Below, piece by piece: positions 1,696 through 27,446 of a stretch of 64,000 nt of DNA. Location: the NCBI GenBank assembly GCA_027624335.1, contig JAQBWV010000005.1:1-64000 (forward strand). Reading direction: 5' to 3'. The translations under genes were made by a program, and so were the position numbers. This stretch comes from Planctomycetota bacterium. GTDB taxonomy: Bacteria > Planctomycetota > Planctomycetia > Planctomycetales > Planctomycetaceae. Under the pieces are notes generated by a model. That model saw only the letters and a list, made by a program, of their open reading frames with translations, was not told the origin of the DNA and made no database searches. Positions within the stretch are counted from its first letter, which is position 1. Every line of letters starts with the position of its first letter.

Positions 1696-2495
1696 GATAC
1701 ATCGACCCGCACATTCACATGGTCTCCCGCACGACCGACGATTATCAGCGAATGGCTCAGGCCGGCTGCGTCGCTGTTACAGAACCAGCGTTCTGGGCCG
1801 GTTTCGATCGCTCGTCAGCTCAGGGCTTCTTCGACTACTACCGACAGCTGACCGAGTACGAGCCGAAGCGCGCCGCTCAGTTCGGCATTCGCCATTTCAC
1901 CTGGCTCTGCATTAACCCGAAGGAAGCGGATGATCCTGGATTCGCTCGCGAAGTGATTTCGATCATTCCCGATTTTCTGGAACGCGAAACGGTTCTTGGG
2001 ATTGGTGAAATCGGACTGAACAAGAACACTCGGAACGAGCTGATTATTCTTGAAGAACAGATCGCGCTGGCCGAAAAGTACAACCAGATGGTGCTGGTCC
2101 ACACGCCGCATCTGGAAGACAAGTTGAAAGGCACCCGCCTCATCATGGATGCGATCAGTGCCAGCTCAATCGAGCCTGGCCGAGTGCTGATCGACCATGT
2201 CGAGGAACACACCGTCGGCGAAGTTCTTGATCGCGGTTTCTGGGCGGGGATGACGCTGTACCCGGATACGAAATGTACCCCTGAGCGAGCTGCCGACATT
2301 ATCGAGATGTACGGTACCGAGCGGCTGTGGATGAACTCGGCGGGTGACTGGGGATGCAGTGACCCTCTGGCCGTCCCGAAAGCGCGATTGGAAATGGCAC
2401 GGAGAGGTCACTCGGCTGAAACAATCGACACGGTCACATTTGGAAACCCGCAGTGTTTCCTCAGTCAGTGCGAGAAATTCCGACTCGAAGATTGA
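1692..2495 (+). CDS. TatD-family metal-dependent hydrolase (EboB-like)
   Basis: MRYIDPHIHMVSRT (HxH metal motif), GIGEIGLNKNT, VLVHTPH, VLIDHVEEHT. Confidence 0.85.
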   Translation: MRYIDPHIHMVSRTTDDYQRMAQAGCVAVTEPAFWAGFDRSSAQGFFDYYRQLTEYEPKRAAQFGIRHFTWLCINPKEADDPGFAREVISIIPDFLERETVLGIGEIGLNKNTRNELIILEEQIALAEKYNQMVLVHTPHLEDKLKGTRLIMDAISASSIEPGRVLIDHVEEHTVGEVLDRGFWAGMTLYPDTKCTPERAADIIEMYGTERLWMNSAGDWGCSDPLAVPKARLEMARRGHSAETIDTVTFGNPQCFLSQCEKFRLED

Positions 2496-2661
2496 GCTTG
2501 TCCGTTCGGGAATGTGCTCGATCCTGAAACGAAGTGAAGGCACGCACCGTCCGGTCTGAATCACCAGAAAAACACAGCCCTCGGTCGCATGGGCAACCGG
2601 GGGCTGTTTAGATTTTTGAATCACCGAAATGCTTTGTCGACGGCCGTCTCGGAGACTCGCA

Positions 2662-3990
2662 TCACGCTGCTTGAGCGACGGACTTCTTGACTCCTCCATT
2701 GCCGTTGCTGTTCGGATTCTTCACACCGGCCAGTTTCGCAACGATGAACGACAGACCTGCCGCTCCGAAGCTGCCAAGCGCTCCCATCTTGACCGAGTCC
2801 AGTGTCAATCCCGCCGGGAAGGCGGCTGTCGACACGAACAGAGCGACGGTGAAACCGATCGCGGCGATCATTCCCAGTGTCACCACATGCCGGAAGTTCA
2901 TTCCCTCAGGCATTTTCAATCCCAGAACCCTCACGGCCAACCACGTCATGAACGTGATGCCAACTGGCTTGCCGATGATCAACCCGGCAAGAACAAGCCA
3001 CGTCCCGGTTCCGACCGCCGAGAAAGCGACTCCCGCATTCACCAGACCGAATAGTCCAAGGATCAGTTCGACTTTGTCTTTCCACCAGTGCTCGAACGAG
3101 TTGAGCGTGTCGTCGCGGTTGAGTTCTTCCCGTGCAAACAGACCAAGGTCCGATTTCGCATGAGGCATGATCGGGATGATCGGGATCAGTCCCAGTGCCG
3201 GATGAATGCCCGCCTTGTAGAAGGCAAACCAGCTCATCGCGCCAGGAATCAACAGGTACCACCAGAAGCTCTGCAACTTCAGTTTTTGAAATCCGATACC
3301 CAGCGCCATTCCGGCGACAGCCAGTCCCATCCACTCCAGCGCCAACGCGCTCGTCGGATAGAACACGGCGAGAATCACCAGTCCGGCAGCGTCATCAGCA
3401 ATCGCCAGCAGCAACAGGAAGGCGATCGCGGGATGCCCCTGTCCGAAGATCATGCGAGCCACCAGATAACTGAAGGCAATGTCGGTCGCACACGGCACCG
3501 CCCATCCGTTGGCCAGTTCCTGCTGGCCGGTCAGCATCACTCCGCCAATGTAGATGGCCGCTGGTCCAAGCACTCCACCAACGGTCGCGAGCAACGGCGT
3601 CGCTGCTTTCCGCGGATCGGACAACGCTCCGCCAGGCAGCAATGCTTCCCAGACTTCCTTACCGGCAATGGCAAAGAACAATGCCATCAGAACGTCGTTG
3701 ATGAGAAAGTGCAGAGTGACGCCGTGCTGCTCGGATGTGGTCGCGTCGTCACCCAGTTCCGGAGTGTCGGAAGTCGCGACGTGAGCTGTGGCATCGTGGC
3801 CGTCGGCTTCATCCTGAGCAGGTGCGGCGTGATGTTCGCCGCTGCCTGTCAGATCAAGATGGATGAAGTGATGATACGAATCAGGAGCGACGTTCGCCCA
3901 GACCAGAGCAGCGATGGCTCCGGCGATAAGGAACATCGAGTTTTCGTACAGGAACGCGACGGCCGCTGGACGCTGTTTCTTGTGTGACAT
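2662..3990 (-). CDS. nhaA: Na+/H+ antiporter NhaA
   Basis: VTLHFLINDVLMALFFAIAGKEV..., GWAVPCATDIAFSYLVARMIFG, LLLLAIADDAAGLVILAVFY, GIHPALG: NhaA signature motifs. Confidence 0.93.
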   Translation of the reverse strand: MSHKKQRPAAVAFLYENSMFLIAGAIAALVWANVAPDSYHHFIHLDLTGSGEHHAAPAQDEADGHDATAHVATSDTPELGDDATTSEQHGVTLHFLINDVLMALFFAIAGKEVWEALLPGGALSDPRKAATPLLATVGGVLGPAAIYIGGVMLTGQQELANGWAVPCATDIAFSYLVARMIFGQGHPAIAFLLLLAIADDAAGLVILAVFYPTSALALEWMGLAVAGMALGIGFQKLKLQSFWWYLLIPGAMSWFAFYKAGIHPALGLIPIIPIMPHAKSDLGLFAREELNRDDTLNSFEHWWKDKVELILGLFGLVNAGVAFSAVGTGTWLVLAGLIIGKPVGITFMTWLAVRVLGLKMPEGMNFRHVVTLGMIAAIGFTVALFVSTAAFPAGLTLDSVKMGALGSFGAAGLSFIVAKLAGVKNPNSNGNGGVKKSVAQAA

Positions 3991-16554: not shown

Positions 16555-16575
16555 TAGCCGAGGCGGGACTTGAAC
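16555..16575. repeat. att direct repeat, distal copy (tRNA-Leu 3'-end fragment)
   Basis: Exact 21/21 match to 27361-27381; flanking bases differ on both sides. Confidence 0.88.
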
Positions 16576-16769
16576 TGAAGCCGGAATACTCGGGAAATCC
16601 GCAAGTTCCCAAGACAGGCGGTGCGGAATGCGGTGCAGTGTCTGCAATCGTTGGTGCATCGGATGCTCGACTTGCGGAACTGGTTGCATGGTGGCCGGAG
16701 TTGTCTGAGGCGGTGCGAGGTGAGATGTATCAACTCGCGGTGAGTTCAACCGCGTCCCATCGCCGGTAG
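16575..16769 (+). pseudogene. Promoterless 64-codon open frame; predicted C-terminal tail of the integrase in the excised circle
   Basis: LKPEYSGNPQVPKTGGAECGAVSAIVGASDARLAELVAWWPELSEAVRGEMYQLAVSSTASHRR*. In phase with gcc-gag-gcg-gga-ctt-gaa of the att core, the same phase used by the integrase at 27363. Confidence 0.65.
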
Positions 16770-16796
16770 TTTTGTGACGTATTTTGTGGAACGCCT

Positions 16797-17972
16797 TCAG
16801 GGCGGTCCTGCGACCGGAAAGCGGTAAAAAAACGACCGGGTATGCCCACCACCGGGGGGCAGGGCAGCGGGTACAGTTGCTTCTGTCGGCATGGCACTGA
16901 TGATGTGCTGAGAATGAACTGGAATTTCTTCGGTTCTGAAGGGAAAGCCACATGGCGAAGACTCCATCCGAAAAACGCACCGCGAAGAAGAAGATCCCTT
17001 CGTCAAAGTTTCCCAAGGCAAAGCGTAAGATCGCTTCGGGAAAGTTTTCCGGTGAGACATCGAAGATCGCTTCCAGCAAATTCGGCAAGGCGAAGAGCAC
17101 GGAGAGTCAGGTCTCGGCAACAGACACTCCGCTGGAACGCCCTGTTCTGCCTTGCCTACACCGGGCGGCGTGCGAGCCAGAACGTCATTAAACAATTCAC
17201 GCCATACCAGGCTAAACGAAATCAGTCCTAAAGGAATCTCGCCGACGTCTTTCGCATTGATCGTGTACGCGGCGCTCTGAATGCCAATGAGACGCCCATT
17301 CTTTAGTAGCGCGCCCCCGCTGGAACCCACCCGGTAATATCCCTCACCGAGGTACTGCAATCCGCTGGATGTTTCCGCGACACCGACAATCTTAACGGGA
17401 CTGATGAGAAAGGTTGGATCGGCTGGCTGGTGAGGGAAGTTGTAATGGCACAGGTGCAAAGTCTCGCCCAATTCGATCGTCGGTCTTTCCCGCGAGAAAA
17501 AGTCTAGGGTGGGCATTTCGCCTTTGGCTTTCAGCTTGAGCACGGCCAGATCGGCCTCGGCGAAGAACCTCGAATCTTTGTTTCTGATCAGTTCCGAATC
17601 ATAGAAATACTCGAGGAACTCGGCTCCTTCCCGATCCGCAAACAACGTCTTGTGAACGTGAACGAAACCCTCAGGGAAAACATTGCCGCGACCTCTCAGA
17701 CTGATGCGGAATTTGTCGGAAAAGACCTTGTCCGCCGAAGCGAATGTCACGTGCCCGGCTGTCAAAACGTGACCATGAGGACTGATCACGACCCCTTGAG
17801 CCCGGCTGACCGTGTTCCCTACGGTGGCTTCGACCAAGACGAAAGGCTTGGGATTTAACGTGGCCAGTCGCTGGATTTCAACAACGGAATTCTGAGCCAT
17901 CCCCGTAATCGGCTGCAGTGCAACGACAGTAACCACCACGGCCAGAAGCATAATTCTATTGAAGTTTATCAC
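16797..17972 (-). CDS. Trypsin-like serine protease (S1 family), cassette-borne; C-terminal ~117 codons look like read-through beyond the cassette end at 17144
   Basis: LTAGHVTF (His), ADLAVLKLKA (Asp), YYRVGSSGGALLKNGRLIGIQS (Ser); signal peptide. The last part is antisense to the Lys-rich ORF. Confidence 0.75.
   Translation of the reverse strand: MINFNRIMLLAVVVTVVALQPITGMAQNSVVEIQRLATLNPKPFVLVEATVGNTVSRAQGVVISPHGHVLTAGHVTFASADKVFSDKFRISLRGRGNVFPEGFVHVHKTLFADREGAEFLEYFYDSELIRNKDSRFFAEADLAVLKLKAKGEMPTLDFFSRERPTIELGETLHLCHYNFPHQPADPTFLISPVKIVGVAETSSGLQYLGEGYYRVGSSGGALLKNGRLIGIQSAAYTINAKDVGEIPLGLISFSLVWRELFNDVLARTPPGVGKAEQGVPAECLLPRPDSPCSSPCRICWKRSSMSHRKTFPKRSYALPWETLTKGSSSSRCVFRMESSPCGFPFRTEEIPVHSQHIISAMPTEATVPAALPPGGGHTRSFFYRFPVAGPP
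16952..17191 (+). CDS. Short Lys-rich protein (MAKTPSEKRTAKKKIPSSKFPKAKRKIASGKF...), probably interrupted at 17144 by the cassette array
   Basis: Highly basic, repetitive KFxxAK(R)KIAS/GKF pattern; sense continues only to the cassette junction. Confidence 0.45.
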   Translation: MAKTPSEKRTAKKKIPSSKFPKAKRKIASGKFSGETSKIASSKFGKAKSTESQVSATDTPLERPVLPCLHRAACEPERH

Positions 17973-18005
17973 GGACTTCAGATCTTTGAGAGACGACGGG
18001 TTTAA

Positions 18006-18096
18006 GGCAGAACGCCTAAGGTAACCCGGCGGCGGCCAAGTAACTTTGATTTTAAAGCCGCGTCATCCGCCGCTCGGGTTGACCGTTTTGTTCGGC
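18006..18096 (-). repeat. Integron attC-like recombination site A (91 bp)
   Basis: Minus strand: GCCGAAC-AAAAC-GGT(C)AACCCG(A)GCGGCGG...CCGCCGCCGGGTTACC-TTAGGC-GTTCTGC; two extra bases in the 2L arm. Confidence 0.78.
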
Positions 18097-18123
18097 GATC
18101 CTGTGATTGGCCGCATGAACTAA

Positions 18124-19347
18124 TCATTTTCCGATACAGAAAAGGTGTTTTTCCCCTCGCAAGTACAGCCGATCGTTGGCGAATACGGGTGAAGCGTCGA
18201 TCATTTCGCCCAGTTCGTTTCGGGCAACTTCTTCGTACTTGTCGCCAGGACGCAGCACAAGGTGCGTTCCCTTTTCGTTTCCGATGTACAGCAAGCCGCC
18301 CGCCAGGGCGAGGCCGCTGTAAACTTTGTCGAACGGTAATCGCTCACGATAAGTAAGCTCGCCGGACTTTGCGTCGATGACTTCCAGAATCCCTTTCCGA
18401 TTGACGCCGAAAAGCTGACCCCCGTGCAAGATCGGTGAAGCGATGGTGTAGCCTCCGTGCGTCGCCTTGGTTTCCCACAGATCACTGGGGGCGACTCCGA
18501 CGCTCTCGGGTAGCCGAACTGCGTGGAACGCCGCTTCGCCATGCACATAGATTGTGTTGCCCAGAACGATCGGCGAGGCGCGGTCGGAGTCGAACAAATC
18601 CCGGGCCAGGATATTTCCATCGCTCGCTCGAACGATCGCCCCGCTGGGGTGGACCAGCACGTCTTCGTTGCCGATCCGAGTAACTGCGGGCGTGGCATGG
18701 CTCGCAGCAAGTTCCGTCCGCCAGACTTCACACCCCGTCTTTGGGTCAATCGCCAACAGATCGTTGAGATGGACTATCAAATAGTCGCCAGCCAACACGG
18801 GCGAGCAACCAAGACCGTACCCGATTTCAGGGTGTTCAATAAACCGAATCCACTTCCGTGTCCCGTTCAGCGAATAAGCGCTAACGACACCATTGCCGAA
18901 CGCACAGAACACAAATTGCCCATCACTGACCGGAGTTGTCTGCGATGAATCGTCGCCCGCTGGCCAATACAGGTCCCTGATCGCTTTGACGGGATGGGTC
19001 CGTTCCATACGCTCCGCTTCGCTCGCGGGTAAAGCGTCGGCATAACCATTCGTTTTCTGCCACAACAGCTTGCCATCCGCGCGGCTCACGCACACGAGTG
19101 AGTTCGGGTAAGACTGCGTAAATATGAACTCGCCGACGATAATTGGCGATCCCTTGCTGGGACCAGGTAGCGGCGTATTCCACAGGACACCTTCTTCGGC
19201 GGACCAACGTATTGGCGGATTCCTCGTCGGATATGCGCCGCTTCCATCATTCCGCCATCCAACCGGTTCTTCTGCCGAGGACGACATGACGCAGATTGTG
19301 ACCGCGAGGATTGAGCGAGCGACTCGCCCTACGAGTGTCGATTTCAC
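18124..19347 (-). CDS. PQQ-binding-like beta-propeller repeat protein (cassette-borne)
   Basis: 407 aa; signal peptide; repeated LVCVSRADGKLLWQK, LLAIDPKTGCEVWRTE, LEVIDAKSGELTYRERL. Confidence 0.85.
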   Translation of the reverse strand: MKSTLVGRVARSILAVTICVMSSSAEEPVGWRNDGSGAYPTRNPPIRWSAEEGVLWNTPLPGPSKGSPIIVGEFIFTQSYPNSLVCVSRADGKLLWQKTNGYADALPASEAERMERTHPVKAIRDLYWPAGDDSSQTTPVSDGQFVFCAFGNGVVSAYSLNGTRKWIRFIEHPEIGYGLGCSPVLAGDYLIVHLNDLLAIDPKTGCEVWRTELAASHATPAVTRIGNEDVLVHPSGAIVRASDGNILARDLFDSDRASPIVLGNTIYVHGEAAFHAVRLPESVGVAPSDLWETKATHGGYTIASPILHGGQLFGVNRKGILEVIDAKSGELTYRERLPFDKVYSGLALAGGLLYIGNEKGTHLVLRPGDKYEEVARNELGEMIDASPVFANDRLYLRGEKHLFCIGK

Positions 19348-19370
19348 GGGTCGATTCCCTCACTTCTATT

Positions 19371-19461
19371 GCCGAACGACCCGCATCACGGGGCGGCGGG
19401 AGTTGACATTGATTTCAAAATCCGCTGGCCACCGCCGCTCCCGTGCATGCGATGGTTCGGC
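19371..19461 (-). repeat. Integron attC-like recombination site B (91 bp)
   Basis: Minus strand: GCCGAAC-CATC-GCAT(G)CACGGG(A)GCGGCGG...CCGCCGCCCCGTGATGC-GGGTC-GTTCGGC. Confidence 0.8.
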
Positions 19462-19468
19462 AATTGCG

Positions 19469-20059
19469 CTACCGAGTCGGTAGTGCGGCAAGTGTCATTT
19501 GACTTTTAACGATTGACTTGATGGTCTCGTCAACCAAGTCAGAGGTAATCGGCTTGGCTGACGTGTGCTGCACGAACACAGCGCCTTTCGGACCGATCCA
19601 AGCACGCCCATGAGCCATCAAATTGTCTCGGTCAGATAACTCGGAGATGAAGCAATACTCAAGTACTTTCAGTGAGGCGATTTTGCGACCAATGTCAACA
19701 ACGTTAATCGCTATCACGTTTGTGGTCGAGTTGGCGTGAGGTTGAGTCCAAACGGCGCGGCCGTGTGGGAAGATTTCAAGCGAGGTATCGGAAAGGTATT
19801 CCAAGCTACGATTTCGAACAGGTTCTGGATGTGTTGCAAACGAAAGGAAGTCGCCGGTTTTCTTGTTCTGAAACACTATCCAGCGGAATGGCAACTTTGC
19901 TTGGATCTCTTCCTTCTCGTCTTCAGCGATGATTTGCCACTCCGCCTCCAGTTTGGGGAGAACGCCGATCGGGGACAGTTCTTCAGAAAATGCCATTGCA
20001 ACGGGGATGAGCGCCGTGCCGACAATTGCCAGAAGCACCGTTTTCAAAAACTTGTTCAT
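19469..20059 (-). CDS. Secreted hypothetical protein (196 aa), cassette-borne
   Basis: N-terminal signal MNKFLKTVLLAIVGTALIPVAMAFS; lies between attC-like sites B and C. Confidence 0.75.
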   Translation of the reverse strand: MNKFLKTVLLAIVGTALIPVAMAFSEELSPIGVLPKLEAEWQIIAEDEKEEIQAKLPFRWIVFQNKKTGDFLSFATHPEPVRNRSLEYLSDTSLEIFPHGRAVWTQPHANSTTNVIAINVVDIGRKIASLKVLEYCFISELSDRDNLMAHGRAWIGPKGAVFVQHTSAKPITSDLVDETIKSIVKSQMTLAALPTR

Positions 20060-20072
20060 CGTTTCCTCGACT

Positions 20073-20163
20073 GCCGAACGCCACCGTTCACCGGGCCGCG
20101 GCGAACGACATTGATTTCAGAACCCGCGCGGCCCGCGGCTCCGTGTGCAACGGATTGTTATTG
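20073..20163 (-). repeat. Integron attC-like recombination site C (91 bp)
   Basis: Minus strand: CAATAAC-AATC-CGTTGCACACGGAGCCGCGG...CCGCGGCCCGGTGAACG-GTGGC-GTTCGGC; shares the TGAAATCAATGTC central block with site B. Confidence 0.78.
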
Positions 20164-20727
20164 CTTTTTTCGCGCTAGGGCGAGCTTTGTAGCTTGTATC
20201 TTTTCAAGTTCGCCATCGAAGGGCGAAAGCAAATGCACAACACGCGCATAATCTCCCGACCGAAACGCTTCTTCCGCGTCGGAGACCGCAGCCTTCAATG
20301 CACGTTGGTGCTCCCATTCCGCGTGTCTCTCGGCGCGCGCTGCCAATTCGTCTTCCGTGGGTTGGTATGCTTCCGCGTGAGCCTTGAGGAAGTACATGTA
20401 GTGGACTGCGGCATCGGGCCAATCGCCCACGTCATCTGGTTGCTCGTCAAGCCAAGCTCTGATTTCGTCCGTGAACGGCAGGACCGTGCGGTAAAAGTCC
20501 GCGACGTCGTCTTCTGGTTGTTTATCGAAGTAATCACCACGAGTGACGTCGCAGGGGATCGCCCACCGTTCGACATAAGGGATCAACTCGCGCAGAGTTT
20601 TCGGCACGTCATCGACGACGACCTTGAAGTACGGGCGATTCTCCGCATTCATGCCGTATTCGTTACGCAATACGTGAGCGGGATACACGTCGCCCGACTT
20701 CAGTGGTTTGCGTGGATGCTGTTTCAT
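20158..20727 (-). CDS. Hypothetical protein (189 aa), cassette-borne
   Basis: ORF starts a few nt after the GTTATTGC core of site D and its TAA stop lies inside the CAATAAC core of site C. Confidence 0.75.
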   Translation of the reverse strand: MKQHPRKPLKSGDVYPAHVLRNEYGMNAENRPYFKVVVDDVPKTLRELIPYVERWAIPCDVTRGDYFDKQPEDDVADFYRTVLPFTDEIRAWLDEQPDDVGDWPDAAVHYMYFLKAHAEAYQPTEDELAARAERHAEWEHQRALKAAVSDAEEAFRSGDYARVVHLLSPFDGELEKIQATKLALARKKQ

Positions 20728-20729
20728 GG

Positions 20730-20815
20730 CAATAACGACTCGGTTAACGTGGCGGCGGCCAGAAATCGTTGCTTCGAGTCGGACGTGGACCGCCGCTCAC
20801 GTTCAACCGTTTGAC
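20730..20815 (-). repeat. Integron attC-like recombination site D (86 bp; left core spacing shortened)
   Basis: Minus strand: GTCAAAC-GGTT(G)AACGTG(A)GCGGCGG...CCGCCGCCACGTTAACC-GAGTC-GTTATTG; 4-5 nt shorter than sites A-C between AAC and the arm. Confidence 0.68.
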
Positions 20816-20918
20816 GAGCAATCCCGTCAGGATGCTTTGGCCATCCTGAAAGGTCGAGCGGAAGCGATGAGGTCTGCGGGCAGCAAGCGAAAACAGTGAA
20901 TCGATGACGCCCCGTCGT

Positions 20919-21080
20919 TCACTCCATCGGAAACAGCCATTGCACGAGTCGACCGGGCCAGCGTCCGATTTCCTTCGGAACGATGTTCAGGCCAAAGAAG
21001 AAGTCGACCATGCACAGCATGACGAACGCCGACACCAACGCGAAGAACGCGGCAAGGAAGATGATGGATGATTTCAGCAT
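20919..21080 (-). CDS. Small membrane protein (53 aa)
   Basis: MLKSSIIFLAAFFALVSAFVMLCMVDFFFGLNIVPKEIGRWPGRLVQWLFPME; one or two TM segments. Confidence 0.45.
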   Translation of the reverse strand: MLKSSIIFLAAFFALVSAFVMLCMVDFFFGLNIVPKEIGRWPGRLVQWLFPME

Positions 21081-21200
21081 GACGAGGTTCCTGTGCCTGA
21101 GCGGCAACGCGGATTGACTGTTGCCGCCGAACCATCGCGACACGTCTTGAAAAGATGGTCACGATGTTGAAATATACAGGCTGGTGTCTCTCCCGATATC

Positions 21201-21791
21201 GTGGACTGTCGAATGTCTTCATCAGCAAAACAGAGATTGTGGGCGACGTGTCTTGGCATTGCCGTTGGCCCGAAGACGACGGCGACGCAAGTCTCTGCAT
21301 TGATCGATGAGTACCAAAGTAAAGAGCAGTGGAAGTCAAAGGCGACGCAAGGCCAGAAACGTCTGGCGAAGCAGATGGGAGTTGATATTAGCGGGGCTGC
21401 GAATCGTCGTGCGGTCGCTGGTATCCTGTACGAAGTCGGGCTTATCTATGGCTGGGTTTTCAGTGTCTGGCGTCGTGAGACGCAACAGAAGGGCGGCTGG
21501 TATTCGGAACTTGGTCTGCCTGCAAACCCTGCAATGGATATTGCCGTTGAACTCTATCGGGCCGGACATGCTGCGGAAGTCAAAGAGTACAGTACAACGG
21601 ACGCCCATGCGGGCGATGTTTTCTTCACGCTTCGCGGTAAGTCCATCAGCGGCGCGGCCTATCAGGAAACGATCAAACGGCTGGCAAAGAGACTGGATCG
21701 GCATGGCTCACCGGGACTGTTGACGACGCTGATTCGAGTTATCGCGGTACTTGGTGGAATCTGGCTGGTGTACGCGATGGCTGCAAATTGA
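21201..21791 (+). CDS. Hypothetical protein with C-terminal TM segment (196 aa); start may be 21213
   Basis: Coding-like ORF; LLTTLIRVIAVLGGIWLVYAMAAN C-terminus. Confidence 0.65.
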   Translation: MDCRMSSSAKQRLWATCLGIAVGPKTTATQVSALIDEYQSKEQWKSKATQGQKRLAKQMGVDISGAANRRAVAGILYEVGLIYGWVFSVWRRETQQKGGWYSELGLPANPAMDIAVELYRAGHAAEVKEYSTTDAHAGDVFFTLRGKSISGAAYQETIKRLAKRLDRHGSPGLLTTLIRVIAVLGGIWLVYAMAAN

Positions 21792-21812
21792 TAACCCTGT
21801 CAGCGTGAGATC

Positions 21813-21959
21813 GTGATCGTGGATATTCATCCGTTGCTTGAATCACTCGCGACGCTTGAGGTGGCGTGTCAGGATGCTGTTGAATGTCTCAACGTCCTGG
21901 CATATCGCAGTTGCGGACCGGAGTTTCGGACTTTGGAAAAGCTGCCACAACTGTGTTGA
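21813..21959 (+). CDS. Possible small ORF (48 aa, GTG start)
   Basis: VIVDIHPLLESLATLEVACQDAVECLNVLAYRSCGPEFRTLEKLPQLC*; read manually, coding-like composition. Confidence 0.3.
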   Translation: MIVDIHPLLESLATLEVACQDAVECLNVLAYRSCGPEFRTLEKLPQLC

Positions 21960-22024
21960 GGAATCGCAACGGCGGGCATAAAGACGTTTGATCAAGTGAC
22001 AGTGTAGTTTGAAAGGCAGACAGA

Positions 22025-22315
22025 ATGCTCAAGCAAGACTCAATCCCCTGCGAGCAATACCAGAAAGTGACGCTCCATCGAGTTGAAACACTTAGTAGTG
22101 GACTCTGGTGTCTTCTGTTTCTGTTCTTGCTCGGTTCAGTTGGCGTATTTGGTTGCCGATACGTGATGAACTCGAAGATTCTGCTGATTGATTGGGGACT
22201 CACCATTTCAATTATTCTGCTGGTCGTCGCTGGTGGCGTCTTCGTCGTACACAACTTTGTGATCCTGCCATACCTGTATTGGCGATGCCAGGTTTGCGGG
22301 CGGGGCGACCGCTGA
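22025..22315 (+). CDS. Small membrane protein (96 aa)
   Basis: Two hydrophobic segments (LWCLLFLFLLGSVGVFGC, LTISIILLVVAGGVFVVHNFVILPYLY). Confidence 0.55.
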   Translation: MLKQDSIPCEQYQKVTLHRVETLSSGLWCLLFLFLLGSVGVFGCRYVMNSKILLIDWGLTISIILLVVAGGVFVVHNFVILPYLYWRCQVCGRGDR

Positions 22316-22435
22316 AACTCAATCGTTGACGAAACAATTTGACGCTAGAAACGTTGAAGCAACAAAGCTTGAGGCTGATCCCCAAAACGTGCGATTGCGG
22401 CTGCGAATTTCGTGTTCTGAACCAGTTCAATAGGG

Positions 22436-23203
22436 GTGTTTGTAATGAGCGGATTGATTCCCTCAGACGCCTCTGCGTTGCGTGATAGTCTGCAAGACGT
22501 CGTTGGTTCGCTCGACTGTATTCGACGTCTCGCAGAAAAGATTCACCGGGTATCGTCAAATCCGTTGGAAGGAAAACCGACGGCTGAAGATTATCGGGCA
22601 CTGAAAGCTGCTTCACCTACAGTCAATGGGCTTGATAGTTCCATGTGGGCGGAATTACTCCACGAAACGCACGAGCAACTGTCGGACTTCTGGCTTGCGA
22701 TTCAGAGTGCCAGCAATGCTTTAACGGGTCTTGAGCCTGCCACGGTCGTCGCGTTGTCGGATGCTTTTCCCGGAAATTGGACCGTTCAATGCCAAGCCGC
22801 ACTGGACGCTGCAACGGCGTGGCTCAAATGGACGCGACCGAATCGGGGGCGAGATGCCGATGCGTCTCGCTTTCTGTCGCTGACAGCGAAACCAATTCCC
22901 GATCTACCGCCTGCAATGTTGAAGCTGGAACAACGTATGGACGAACTGTTCGCGTTGCGAGTTCAGAGCGAACCGGACGGACATGCGAGAAAGAATCATT
23001 CAAAACGAAAAGGGGCACCCCGTCTGGCCCGAACAGGAAAGGAGACGGCCATTGTCAAAGCCCATAAGAAAAACCAGCCGCACGAAAAGACGGCACGACT
23101 CGCGGGCGTATTCACTCGTGACGGACTACCGGACGCCAGCCTGGTGAAGACGGTTTTAAATCGAAAATCCGAACAGAAACGGCGACAGCGACGAAAACCG
23201 TAA
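22436..23203 (+). CDS. Hypothetical protein (255 aa) with basic C-terminus
   Basis: Long ORF upstream of the HTH/primase genes on the same strand. Confidence 0.6.
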   Translation: MFVMSGLIPSDASALRDSLQDVVGSLDCIRRLAEKIHRVSSNPLEGKPTAEDYRALKAASPTVNGLDSSMWAELLHETHEQLSDFWLAIQSASNALTGLEPATVVALSDAFPGNWTVQCQAALDAATAWLKWTRPNRGRDADASRFLSLTAKPIPDLPPAMLKLEQRMDELFALRVQSEPDGHARKNHSKRKGAPRLARTGKETAIVKAHKKNQPHEKTARLAGVFTRDGLPDASLVKTVLNRKSEQKRRQRRKP

Positions 23204-23403
23204 AAACGTTCCACGAAGTCGAGTTCAATTCGTGGAATCTGGCTCTTGCGGAAAAAATTCTTGCTCTGCGGGTGCCTGCATCGCCAGACAAAAGTGATCC
23301 ACGAATTCAGTTCCACGAATTGCAACGTGGAAACCACCCATAAATTCCCGCCCGTCCGGCAGACTTGGTGTCAGCCGATTACTTGTGGCAAAGGAGTTCT
23401 GCA

Positions 23404-23619
23404 ATGGGTGAGGGGCAACGACAGGATTGTCTGGCGGTGACATACCGCGAAGCGGCGAAGTCGCTGGGGGTGTGCGAGCGGGCTGTGTGGCAACTGGTGA
23501 AGGATGGAGAACTGCGGGCTGTTCGCATCGGGCGTTCGGTTCGCATTCCGGTACAGGAACTGAAGCAGTTCGTGGCCATTCGTTCGCAGTCGGCGGACGT
23601 GAAAGGGGGTGCGGTATGA
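23404..23619 (+). CDS. Helix-turn-helix (excisionase/HTH_17-like) DNA-binding protein
   Basis: LAVTYREAAKSLGVCERAVWQLVKDGELRAVRIGRSVRIPVQELKQFV; ATGA overlap with the primase gene. Confidence 0.75.
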   Translation: MGEGQRQDCLAVTYREAAKSLGVCERAVWQLVKDGELRAVRIGRSVRIPVQELKQFVAIRSQSADVKGGAV

Positions 23620-25967
23620 CTGCCCCCATTGACAAGGTGCTGGAAGCGGTTGAGGGGGCGAGCGGTCATCCACCGAAGCAGAATCAGTCAGGCTGGCAGG
23701 CACGATGTCCTGCCCATGACGACCGGAATCCGAGTCTCGCGATTTCAGAAAACGCTGACGGCAAGGTATTGCTGCACTGTCACGCTGGATGTACCTCAGA
23801 TGAAGTGCTTCAGAAGTCCGGACTGCAACAGACCGACCTGTTCCCTGACTCGCGTCAGCGTAAGCAGAACCCCTTAAAGGCAAGGAAAAAGAATGGTTTT
23901 GCAGACAGAGGACGGCCCGGCAAGCAGGTGTTTCCGACGATGCCTGCTGTCGTTGATGAACTGACACGACAAAAGGGTCAACCTTCCCACGTCTGGCACT
24001 ACTGCGATCCAGCGAATCAGGAAGCAGGAGCGGTACTGCGTTGGGATGGCCCGAACGGCAAGGACATTCTCCCGGTCAGTCTGACGAACGACGGGTGGGT
24101 GATCGGAGCCATGCCAGAACCTCGTCCGTTGTATCGTCTGCCGTCGATTGTTGCTGCGGAACGGGTCTACGTTGTCGAAGGTGAAAAGTGTGCTGACGCA
24201 CTGACAACGCTCGACGTTGAAGCAACGACCTGTTCCGGTGGCTCGAAGGCAGCCAGTAAGACGGACTGGCTGCCGTTGGCGGGGAAGGAAGTCTGCATTC
24301 TTCCCGACAACGACGCACCGGGCCGTGGGTATGCGGAGCAGGTTGCGAAAATTCTTCAGGCACTGACGCCACCTTCGCAGGTACGAATCGTTGGCATGAC
24401 GGAACTTTGGGCGGAAGTTCCTGAGAAGGGTGACGTTGCCGACTGGCTGGAGCATTCCCCATCAGTAGATCGATCCGAACTACGGAAGCGACTCGACAGC
24501 GTCTGTCAGGCCGCGATTCCGCGAGTGGTGGAACGAACTCGAATCCCTTGTGAGAGTTTCGAACCGTTCCCGCTGGACGTCCTGCCTAATCGCTTGCAGA
24601 AGCTGGTCGCAGACGGAGCAGCATCCATCGGTTGCAACGTGGCAAATATCGCCCTGCCATTGCTGACGGCCTACGGGGCTGCCATCGGAAACACTCGACG
24701 ATTGCGATTGAAAGACGGATGGGATGTTCCGCCGATTATCTGGTCGATCGTCGTTGGCAAGTCTGGAAGTGGTAAGTCGCCTGCATGGAAGGTCGCCATG
24801 CAGCCAACCGCAAGAATCGAAAAGACCGCAGAACTGCGACACAACCGGGAAGTCGCTCAGTGGATCGATGATTGCGAAGGCTGGTCCAAAGAACACTCGC
24901 AATGGAAGCAGGACGGAAAGGAAGGTCCAGAACCGCAGGAACCCGAACGGCCTGAACTGGAACGTTACACCGTTGTCGACACGACGGTCGAAGGACTGGC
25001 TCCGATATTGCAGTCAAATCCGCGAGGACTACTGCTGTGTCGCGATGAACTCAGTGGCTGGGTCGGTTCGTTCGATCGGTATGCGAAAGGCGGAGTTGGA
25101 GCAGATGCTTCCCACTGGTTGTCGATGTTCAACGGAACGTCGTTGCGGATCGATCGAAAGACCGGTGAGCCTCGCACGATCTTTGTGCCATCTGCTGCAA
25201 TCAATATCTGTGGTGGAATTCAACCGGGGATACTTCGAGCGGCATTTGGAAGCGAGCACCGTGAGAACGGACTTTTTTACCGTTTCCTGACAGCGTGGCC
25301 ACCTCACAATGCTCGCAAGTGGAACGAACATGAAATCGCAGGGGCGACCGTCGATGCGGTCGCTGATGCGTTGGAAATGCTCTACGCACTTGAATTCGAT
25401 ATCGATCGTTTTCAGCAACAAACGCCGCGTATTCTAACATTGGAACCGAAGGCGAAGCACGCATTCGTCGATTTTTTCAACGAGCACGGTGAGGAACAGC
25501 AGGGGCTTGCTGATGACTTAGCGTCCGCGTGGTCCAAGCTCGAAGAGTACGCCGCACGTCTGGCGATGGTCCTGCACTTTGCCGCGTGGGCAGAGGATCC
25601 GAATTCGGTTTCCGACCGCTTGGGACTGCCGGCGATGGAAGGCGGTATTCGACTGGTTCGATGGTTCGGCAACGAAACGCGACGGATCCATCGGATGCTT
25701 GCTTCGGATGAAGAGACACAGACGAGAGAGTCTTTCGTGGAATGGATCGCTCGGAAAGGTGGTGCGGTTACGGTCCGTGAAGTGCAGACTGGGAATCGCC
25801 GATTCGGTACTGCTGACGATGCGGAAGATGCACTGAACGAACTGAACGAAAAGGGGTACGGAGAATGGGAGGACATACCGTCCGGCCCGCAGGGTGGTCG
25901 CCCGACTCGTACGTTTCGACTCTACCCCACTGAATCGGTCTGCAAAACCATTGCGAATTCCGACTGA
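23616..25967 (+). CDS. CHC2 zinc-finger primase / DUF3987 helicase-like protein of a mobile element
   Basis: WQARCPAHDDRNPSLAISENADGKVLLHCHAGC (CHC2), VYVVEGEKCADAL (Toprim-like), IVVGKSGSGKSPAWK (Walker A), LLCRDELSGWVGSFDRY. Confidence 0.82.
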   Translation: MTAPIDKVLEAVEGASGHPPKQNQSGWQARCPAHDDRNPSLAISENADGKVLLHCHAGCTSDEVLQKSGLQQTDLFPDSRQRKQNPLKARKKNGFADRGRPGKQVFPTMPAVVDELTRQKGQPSHVWHYCDPANQEAGAVLRWDGPNGKDILPVSLTNDGWVIGAMPEPRPLYRLPSIVAAERVYVVEGEKCADALTTLDVEATTCSGGSKAASKTDWLPLAGKEVCILPDNDAPGRGYAEQVAKILQALTPPSQVRIVGMTELWAEVPEKGDVADWLEHSPSVDRSELRKRLDSVCQAAIPRVVERTRIPCESFEPFPLDVLPNRLQKLVADGAASIGCNVANIALPLLTAYGAAIGNTRRLRLKDGWDVPPIIWSIVVGKSGSGKSPAWKVAMQPTARIEKTAELRHNREVAQWIDDCEGWSKEHSQWKQDGKEGPEPQEPERPELERYTVVDTTVEGLAPILQSNPRGLLLCRDELSGWVGSFDRYAKGGVGADASHWLSMFNGTSLRIDRKTGEPRTIFVPSAAINICGGIQPGILRAAFGSEHRENGLFYRFLTAWPPHNARKWNEHEIAGATVDAVADALEMLYALEFDIDRFQQQTPRILTLEPKAKHAFVDFFNEHGEEQQGLADDLASAWSKLEEYAARLAMVLHFAAWAEDPNSVSDRLGLPAMEGGIRLVRWFGNETRRIHRMLASDEETQTRESFVEWIARKGGAVTVREVQTGNRRFGTADDAEDALNELNEKGYGEWEDIPSGPQGGRPTRTFRLYPTESVCKTIANSD

Positions 25968-26111
25968 CGATAGGTTTCGCAGACGCTGACAAGGTCAATC
26001 GGGCTGGCGCGCTAACGTCCGTCCGGGTTATCTTTCTTCTCTGATCCTCACTCCGCATCCGGTGGCCCGGTTTCATCCGGGCTGCCGTGCGGGCTTACGA
26101 AAGGCAATGAC

Positions 26112-27413
26112 ATGGCTTCAATCTCAAAGAACGCGAACGGTCGAAAGACGATTCAGTTTGTCAGCACGGACGGCAAACGTCGCAGCATCCGACTCGGCAA
26201 AGTCTCACAGCGAACAGCAGAAGCGGTTAAAGTCAAAGTCGAAGCACTGGTCGGCGCGAATGTTACCGGTCATCTTGATGCTGAAACGACTCGCTGGGTT
26301 GAAGCACTGGACCAACAGCTTGCCAATCGACTGACTGCCGCCGGACTGATCGAAGAACGTGACACGGCAACATTGAAGATCTGGATTGATCGCTACGTCG
26401 CACAGCGAACAGACGTAAAGCCGCTGACTCTCCTGAAGTATCACACCACCAGCGATTACCTGGTTGAATTCTTCGGAGCGAACCGCAGCCTGCGAAGCAT
26501 CACGCCCGGCGATGCCGACGAATTTCGTCTGGCGGTGATGCACCGGAAAGTCGGAAGAGGAACGCCCAACGAACGGCCAGTTTCCGAGAATACCATCCGT
26601 AAGCACGTGGCTGTGGCCAAAGTGTTCTTCAACGCCGCCGTACGGAAGCGACTGATTTCCTCAAATCCGTTTGCAGACCTGAAGGCGACGATCCAGCCGA
26701 ACCCCAGCCGATTCTACTTCGTGACACGAAAAGAGACTGATCAGGTTCTTGACCAGTGTCCTGATGCCGAATGGCGTCTGATTTTCGCTCTGAGCCGCTA
26801 CGGTGGGCTGCGTTGCCCGTCAGAGCACCTTGCCCTGCGATGGGACGACGTCAATTGGGAGCACAACCGAATTCTCGTCAGAAGCCCAAAGACGGAACAC
26901 CATGCTGGCGGGGACTCACGTTTGATCCCATTGTTTCCGGAGTTGGTTAAGCCGTTACAGGACGTGTTTGAACTGGCCGAACCGGGAACCGAGTACGTCA
27001 TCACCAAACACCGCGACACCAACGTCAACCTGCGGACTCAACTTTGCCGGATGATCAAACGAGCCGGCCTGAAGCCCTGGCCGCGACTATTCCAGAACCT
27101 GCGGAGCACACGCCAGACGGAACTGAGTGAATCATTCCCTTCTCACGTCGTCTGCCAGTGGATCGGAAACAGCGAACAGGTTGCGGTGAAGCATTACCTG
27201 CAAGTGACCGACGAGCACTTCAGTAAAGCGGTGCAGAATCCGGTGCAGTGTCTGCACGAATCCCCCCGCAAGACGTCGCAGCCGAAACTGAGCCGGCATC
27301 CGGAAACACAGGAAATGCAAGCCCCTGCGACTCGCTGCGGTATAGTGAACATAAGTTTATTAGCCGAGGCGGGACTTGAACCCGCACGCTCCATTCGGAA
27401 CCCGGGATTTTAA
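26112..27413 (+). CDS. Tyrosine recombinase/integrase whose C-terminus runs into the tRNA-Leu 3' end
   Basis: 433 aa; LSRYGGLRCPSEHLALRWDDV, HVVCQWIGNSEQVAVKHYLQVTDEHF; the last residues (AEAGLEPARSIRNPGF) are encoded by antisense tRNA sequence. Confidence 0.88.
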   Translation: MASISKNANGRKTIQFVSTDGKRRSIRLGKVSQRTAEAVKVKVEALVGANVTGHLDAETTRWVEALDQQLANRLTAAGLIEERDTATLKIWIDRYVAQRTDVKPLTLLKYHTTSDYLVEFFGANRSLRSITPGDADEFRLAVMHRKVGRGTPNERPVSENTIRKHVAVAKVFFNAAVRKRLISSNPFADLKATIQPNPSRFYFVTRKETDQVLDQCPDAEWRLIFALSRYGGLRCPSEHLALRWDDVNWEHNRILVRSPKTEHHAGGDSRLIPLFPELVKPLQDVFELAEPGTEYVITKHRDTNVNLRTQLCRMIKRAGLKPWPRLFQNLRSTRQTELSESFPSHVVCQWIGNSEQVAVKHYLQVTDEHFSKAVQNPVQCLHESPRKTSQPKLSRHPETQEMQAPATRCGIVNISLLAEAGLEPARSIRNPGF

Positions 27414-27446
27414 GTCCCGTGCGTCTGCCTATTCCGCCACTCGGCC
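27361..27446 (-). tRNA. tRNA-Leu (anticodon UAA)
   Basis: Minus: GGCCGAGTGGCGGAATAGGCAGACGCACGGGACTTAAAATCCCGGGTTCCGAATGGAGCGTGCGGGTTCAAGTCCCGCCTCGGCTA; cloverleaf with long variable arm, TTCAAGT T-loop, no encoded CCA. Confidence 0.9.

Follow-up and report, generated by a model that had tools for sequence, protein, structure and literature searches.

What becomes of an integrase whose gene runs through the site at which its own element recombines? The question is raised by the window analysed here (the whole stretch of 64,000 nucleotides from a Planctomycetota bacterium, assembly GCA_027624335.1, contig JAQBWV010000005.1), in which a tyrosine integrase gene crosses the att core at one end of an integrated element and an open frame continues from the copy of that core at the other end. 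The features that define the situation are these:

16555–27381, no strand: mobile element integrated in tRNA-Leu(TAA), spanning about 10.8 kb core to core, with the sole 21-bp exact direct repeat at its ends
16555–16575, + strand: left att core, a displaced 21-bp copy of the tRNA 3′ end (exact repeat)
27361–27381, + strand: right att core, the 3′ end of the intact tRNA gene (exact repeat; the tRNA gene ends at 27361)
27361–27446, − strand: integration target, tRNA-Leu(TAA), called by ARAGORN
26112–27413, + strand: tyrosine integrase in its integrated, tailless form, 433 aa (PF00589)
16575–16769, + strand: displaced integrase tail, 64 codons plus stop, identified by its frame shared with the integrase across the core, its homologues and its codon pattern

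The core sequence, TAGCCGAGGCGGGACTTGAAC, is found at 16555–16575 and 27361–27381, and the 64-kb window contains no other exact direct repeat of at least 21 bp. The 3′ end of tRNA-Leu(TAA) as placed by ARAGORN coincides exactly with the right copy. The complete tRNA gene thus bounds the element on one side and the matching 21-bp 3′ fragment, at 16555, on the other, as expected of a tRNA-targeting integrative element. The protein also satisfies the criterion for a tyrosine recombinase (R...HxxR...Y), with the R and Y columns invariant in a 16-sequence alignment, and matches Phage_integrase (PF00589, 2e-10, residues 204–369) and Phage_int_SAM_5 (PF13102, 7e-7). The core occupies codons 417–423, beyond the whole of the PF00589 match. 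The original prediction, made from the letters of this DNA alone, was that the integrase frame spans the core and ends ten codons into antisense tRNA, and that the left copy of the repeat is in phase with a 64-codon frame ending at 16769. Both statements hold: the ORF crosses the core and stops ten codons on within the antisense tRNA (C-terminus PARSIRNPGF), and the 5′ part of the integrase joined to the left core copy forms a single open frame of 487 aa that ends LKPEYSGNPQ...VSSTASHRR, with its stop codon at 16767–16769. The last residues common to the two forms, AEAGLE, are encoded by the core.

The 64-aa tail alone matched no family or entry in Pfam, NCBIfam or the PDB, and tblastn against PLSDB found no match to it in plasmids. 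A single-sequence search of 294 genomes returned candidate relatives in eight other planctomycete genomes, most of them lying directly 3′ of an antisense tRNA fragment. A tail profile matched 118 of the 392 Planctomycetota genomes sampled; within the window's class, a shorter one matched 105 of 199. When one genome from each of 85,462 species was scanned with a DNA pattern for WPxLPxA[IVM]RAGI[VIM]A, 28 contigs matched, 27 of them labelled as planctomycete and one belonging to a MAG labelled Leptolyngbya sp. PLA1. Across 132 distinct tails, mean entropy at codon positions 1, 2 and 3 was 1.37, 1.06 and 1.70 bits; the conserved Trp was TGG in 131 of 131, and the conserved Pro, Leu and Arg used many synonymous codons. 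A profile search favors conserved residues, yet it does not favor free third codon positions. With free third positions, an invariant Trp and synonymous variation at the other residues, the codon pattern shows that the tail is under selection as a protein.

We then took up to 20 kb around or downstream of the tails, searched it without regard to frame for a same-strand integrase, and accepted as pairs those in which the 3′ region of the integrase and the region preceding the tail had 15 bp or more of exact repeat in common. The integrase frame reached the core in 34 of 35 such pairs (the window excluded), and in all 34 it was in frame with the tail; the junction was open in 32 of the 34, and in every one of the 28 pairs with a recognized intact tRNA. 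Chance would give agreement in one third of cases, or 3^-34 = 6e-17 for 34 independent pairs, which is not an exact probability since some of the elements are related by descent. Core lengths run from 15 to 74 bp; the tRNA targets comprise 15 types (Ile, Leu, Ala, Met, Val, Ser, His, Asn, Gly, Tyr, Cys, Glu, Lys, Arg and SeC). Counted from the start of the core, the rejoined genes gain 58–108 aa that end in the conserved tail, and the integrated genes gain 8–135 aa of unrelated sequence determined by the host. The comparison thus rests on phylum-wide tail homologues together with 34 of 34 shared-core elements joining in the frame of the tail, and on that footing the inferred swap is beyond chance.

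The same arrangement extends to an element at tRNA-Glu (L265), in which the join is in frame and open, and to a 42.8-kb provirus with portal and capsid genes (L224/L225; IMG/VR 3300017649_000112, G415), whose split integrase also joins in frame and open. The provirus lies at the 3′ end of a tmRNA (Rfam RF00023, E 1.7e-23). Of 130 tails, 91 had a T-loop-like sequence in the 220 bp upstream, compared with 3 of 130 and 0 of 126 control stretches. The first round of pairing left 55 of 84 tails unpaired, mostly because no integrase was detected within about 18 kb or before the contig end. The L069 pair was rejected as false, its integrase stopping short of the core; for L043, the long repeat first chosen as core was discarded, as it sits upstream of the att core, and the true core joins in frame; and a 546-aa frame at L062, considered as a fused integrase, has no integrase domain. 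At L083 and L100 the tRNA is in the opposite orientation, on the integrase strand, with the integrase–core–tail frame still kept. In L061 (G257:C102) two copies of the tail lie 2.8 kb from each other, together with a 139-bp repeat, and stop codons interrupt the stretch from core to tail; judged by this layout it is a decaying or nested element.

Unsplit genes were found in viral contigs, where a first degenerate tail pattern gave no match and a looser pattern with a second alignment succeeded. Contig L218 (IMG/VR 3300036717_000070, 49.4 kb) encodes integrase, core and tail in one frame of 533 aa and also carries DUF3987 primase and DNA methylase genes. Contigs L228 and L229, which are identical over 5.2 kb, encode the same succession in one frame of 492–498 aa. 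No tRNA was found near the core of L218 or of L228/L229. A MAG contig (L285) carries a 656-aa integrase–core–tail gene with a single core. In tandem arrays (L060/L167, G306:C270; L265, G515:C21), the integrase of the upstream element continues in frame into the downstream element's tail, and the L060 and L265 fusions are, as deduced from their reading frames, chimeric full-length integrases. The idea that L228 and L229 are circular permutations of one phage was not supported, and L041, which has the closest of the viral integrases from the initial search, showed no tail on the available stretch.

For the L229 integrase, AlphaFold predicts a three-strand N-terminal domain plus a helix, core-binding and catalytic domains, and a two-helix hairpin at residues 459–491 (mean pLDDT 76.9 for the protein, about 76–83 for the hairpin). 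Residues 376–458, which correspond to the attP DNA, are predicted with low confidence or as disordered. With its helices known only from prediction, the tail is a conserved, uncatalogued two-helix module. The 487-aa protein obtained by joining the two parts of the window's gene is 36% identical to the native L229 protein over residues 1–471, that is, through the junction. It had been proposed that tailed integrases be sought in unintegrated forms, and that the swap would be refuted if the tail were never fused in frame or if stops lay between core and tail. Tailed integrases do exist unsplit in viral contigs, with the L229 alignment crossing the junction, and the in-frame joins and unsplit genes rule out both refuting outcomes. 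They also support the distinction originally drawn between a 487-aa form in the circle and a 433-aa form in the chromosome.

The DNA flanking the core offers a further clue to how such a gene might be organized:

27228–27256, + strand: putative arm-type site on the integrase side of attP, inside int codons (27 of 29 positions identical to 16618–16646)
16618–16646, + strand: putative arm-type site on the tail side of attP, inside tail codons (27 of 29 positions identical to 27228–27256)

The first copy of this 29-bp repeat ends 104 bp before the right core and the second starts 42 bp after the left core; the window holds no third copy at up to 8 mismatches. The two are read in different codon phases, as AVQNPVQCLH in int and as GGAECGAVSA in the tail, and because of this translation in two phases the repeat is a DNA element rather than a protein duplication. 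In 21 of 33 elements the int side and the tail side had a direct repeat of 11 bp or longer in common, against 0.65 expected from shuffles, and unsplit viral integrase genes have paired repeats as well. The sequences of the repeats differ among elements and their positions are similar, mostly 110–195 bp before the core and 60–170 bp after its start. Purely by analogy with lambda-type integrases, we read the paired repeats as putative arm-type Int-binding sites; with a three-strand N-domain in the L229 model and repeats on both sides of the core, an arm-binding enzyme with a bipartite attP would be possible.

Considering these observations together, we hold it to be highly probable that the int gene runs through attP, that its C-terminus is swapped, and that the tail is functional. 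Comparison among sequences establishes that the gene spans attP and is split in frame, that integration removes the tail codons, that the tail is conserved as protein even though only the free form of the enzyme has it, that unsplit genes exist, and that paired repeats lie in coding DNA. Two further genes of the element bear on how the system might work:

23365–23619, + strand: HTH_17 (excisionase-like) DNA-binding protein (PF12728, 4e-11), a candidate directionality factor whose role is inferred
23616–25967, + strand: DUF3987 primase/helicase-type replication protein (PF13148, 4e-69), likely start ATG at 23616

In the PHROGs collection, the DUF3987 protein matches phrog_2373 (DNA helicase, 5e-38) and phrog_6088 (DNA primase, 2e-32).

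In the mechanism that we propose, the excised circle would carry an int gene running through its own attP and encoding 487 aa: arm-binding, core-binding and catalytic domains, an unstructured linker, and the two-helix tail. Integration at tRNA-Leu would be a crossover in the core within the int gene, which would carry the tail codons (16575–16769, which have no clear start) to the opposite end of the element and put 10 codons of antisense host tRNA in their place, giving the 433-aa form; excision would restore the full gene. We infer that the tailed enzyme would perform integration and that the tailless enzyme would have lower or altered activity, stabilizing the inserted state and leaving excision dependent on a helper, for example the HTH_17 protein. 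The C-terminus of the integrase would then report whether the element is free or inserted.

That the tail controls the direction or stability of recombination is an inference, made without activity data, towards which we lean only slightly. The broader proposal, that elements of Planctomycetota carry a dedicated and undescribed integrase tail domain, present only in the free state and combined with different integrase subfamilies and tRNA targets, which serves as a directionality switch (on for integration; off for a locked or excision-competent state), is tentative, and we would stop just short of an even bet on it. The host genome has only four matches to the tail profile for about a dozen tRNA-ending integrases, some of which have no detected tail; this counts against the swap itself, as do the tails left unpaired in the first round. 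Neither the excised circle nor the empty site of the window's element was seen, and an empty-site comparison through the TPR gene of the left flank found only relatives of 34–40% identity with no adjacent tRNA, too distant to be informative.

The swap could also be a mere by-product of a compact attP embedded in int, with the tail supporting Int in the circle (through stability or multimerization) and its loss having no regulatory meaning. Such a view draws on the fact that the arms and core of attP all lie within the int and tail coding region, making integrase plus site one transferable module, and we think it unlikely without being able to set it aside: the architecture keeps its frame at many tRNA targets and over different integrase subfamilies, and the sole characterized analogue, the Myxococcus phage Mx8 integrase, changes activity (PMC4701971).

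An improbable alternative is that the tail is a degradation or instability signal, so that the Int of the circle would be short-lived and integration would create a stable one. The precedent is mycobacteriophage BPs (PMC4557955), which resembles our elements in having attP within a regulatory gene and in that integration alters the C-terminus and activity of a protein; its virus-encoded repressor bears an ssrA-like C-terminal tag that integration removes. The altered BPs gene is a repressor rather than an integrase, and the lost end is a degradation tag. Against such a signal here, the conserved part of the tail is a predicted helical hairpin, not a short terminal signal, and the final residues vary (ASHRR, DATA, EGPR, GNT). 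It is scarcely credible that the tail is a small gene in its own right next to attL, such as a directionality factor, in frame with int by accident: an in-frame start codon of some kind with a Shine-Dalgarno-like sequence does occur in 28 of 132 tails, but a start with a ribosome site is missing from most, all 34 pairs are in frame with 32 open across their cores, and one-frame fusions exist in free viral contigs. Equally hard to sustain is conservation as DNA only, as the far arm of attP with an incidental open frame, for although the GGAECGAVSA part of the tail overlaps the DNA-conserved repeat that int reads in the other phase, the hairpin half has free third codon positions with constrained first and second ones, and the peptide motif stays while the arm sequences vary among elements.

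The reading of the tail as a swapped, functional part of the integrase has its closest precedent in Mx8 (Tojo 1996 and Magrini 1999, via PMC4701971, PMC6070905 and PMC4383910). As reported there, attP lies inside int, integration exchanges a 112-residue C-terminal part for 13 host-encoded residues to give a less active product (PMC4701971), and the Int made after integration has changed specificity (PMC6070905). The Mx8 and planctomycete systems are alike in placing attP in the coding sequence of a tyrosine integrase behind its catalytic domain and in exchanging the C-terminus, which here is inferred from the sequences of both forms. They differ in that Mx8 is one Myxococcus phage type, whereas the planctomycete tail is a family common to elements at many tRNA genes across the phylum. 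Homology with the Mx8 tail was considered and rejected, as the tail profile gave a best domain score of −0.3 bits against Mx8 Int.

The original prediction compared the locus with SSV-type archaeal integrases. This comparison is apt in that the recombination target lies inside the integrase gene, which is split on integration, but those genes are cut into Int(N) and Int(C) halves that are reported to be inactive (PMC8371274); because the planctomycete catalytic domain stays whole and only the C-terminal tail is exchanged, as in Mx8, the archaeal analogy is the weaker one. Streptococcal ICEs in rumA likewise have an att site within the integrase gene but use serine recombinases and target rumA instead of tRNA genes (PMC4701971). 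Att sites within the integrase gene have been described for very few integrative elements (PMC4701971), and self-disrupting recombinases have been called exclusively archaeal (PMC8371274). Our literature search, limited to open-licence papers, found no report of a phylum-wide bacterial family or of a planctomycete case. The principle is thus already known from Mx8, the serine integrases of the rumA ICEs and the SSV type, and what the planctomycetes add, as far as that search goes, is a bacterial family spread over a phylum and equipped with a conserved tail domain of its own. The planctomycete elements amount to a natural test, repeated many times over, of how direction or stability depends on the C-terminal end of a tyrosine recombinase. 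The split integrase–tail pairs allow element ends to be mapped precisely in planctomycetes, and the swap explains both the antisense-tRNA peptides (e.g. GLEPATSRL) that end planctomycete integrases and the orphan AWPxLPxxIR fragments.

At L266 (G430:C2, ORF 2473–3765) the arrangement differs: the tail motif of this 431-aa integrase follows its catalytic domain immediately and no tRNA core is visible in between, which may reflect a deletion or a lineage whose attP lies elsewhere. The host genome of the window (G000) contains about a dozen tyrosine integrases that end at or in tRNA genes (L177–L189; contigs C391, C398, C308, C320, C145, C212 and others), with Arg, Asp, Ala, Pro, Ser, Leu and Gln as targets, and its load of tRNA-targeting elements is unusually heavy. 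Within the window's own element, the cargo adjoining the tail end lies on the minus strand and encodes a trypsin-like protease domain protein (16797–17972) and a PQQ/BamB-type beta-propeller protein (18124–19347).
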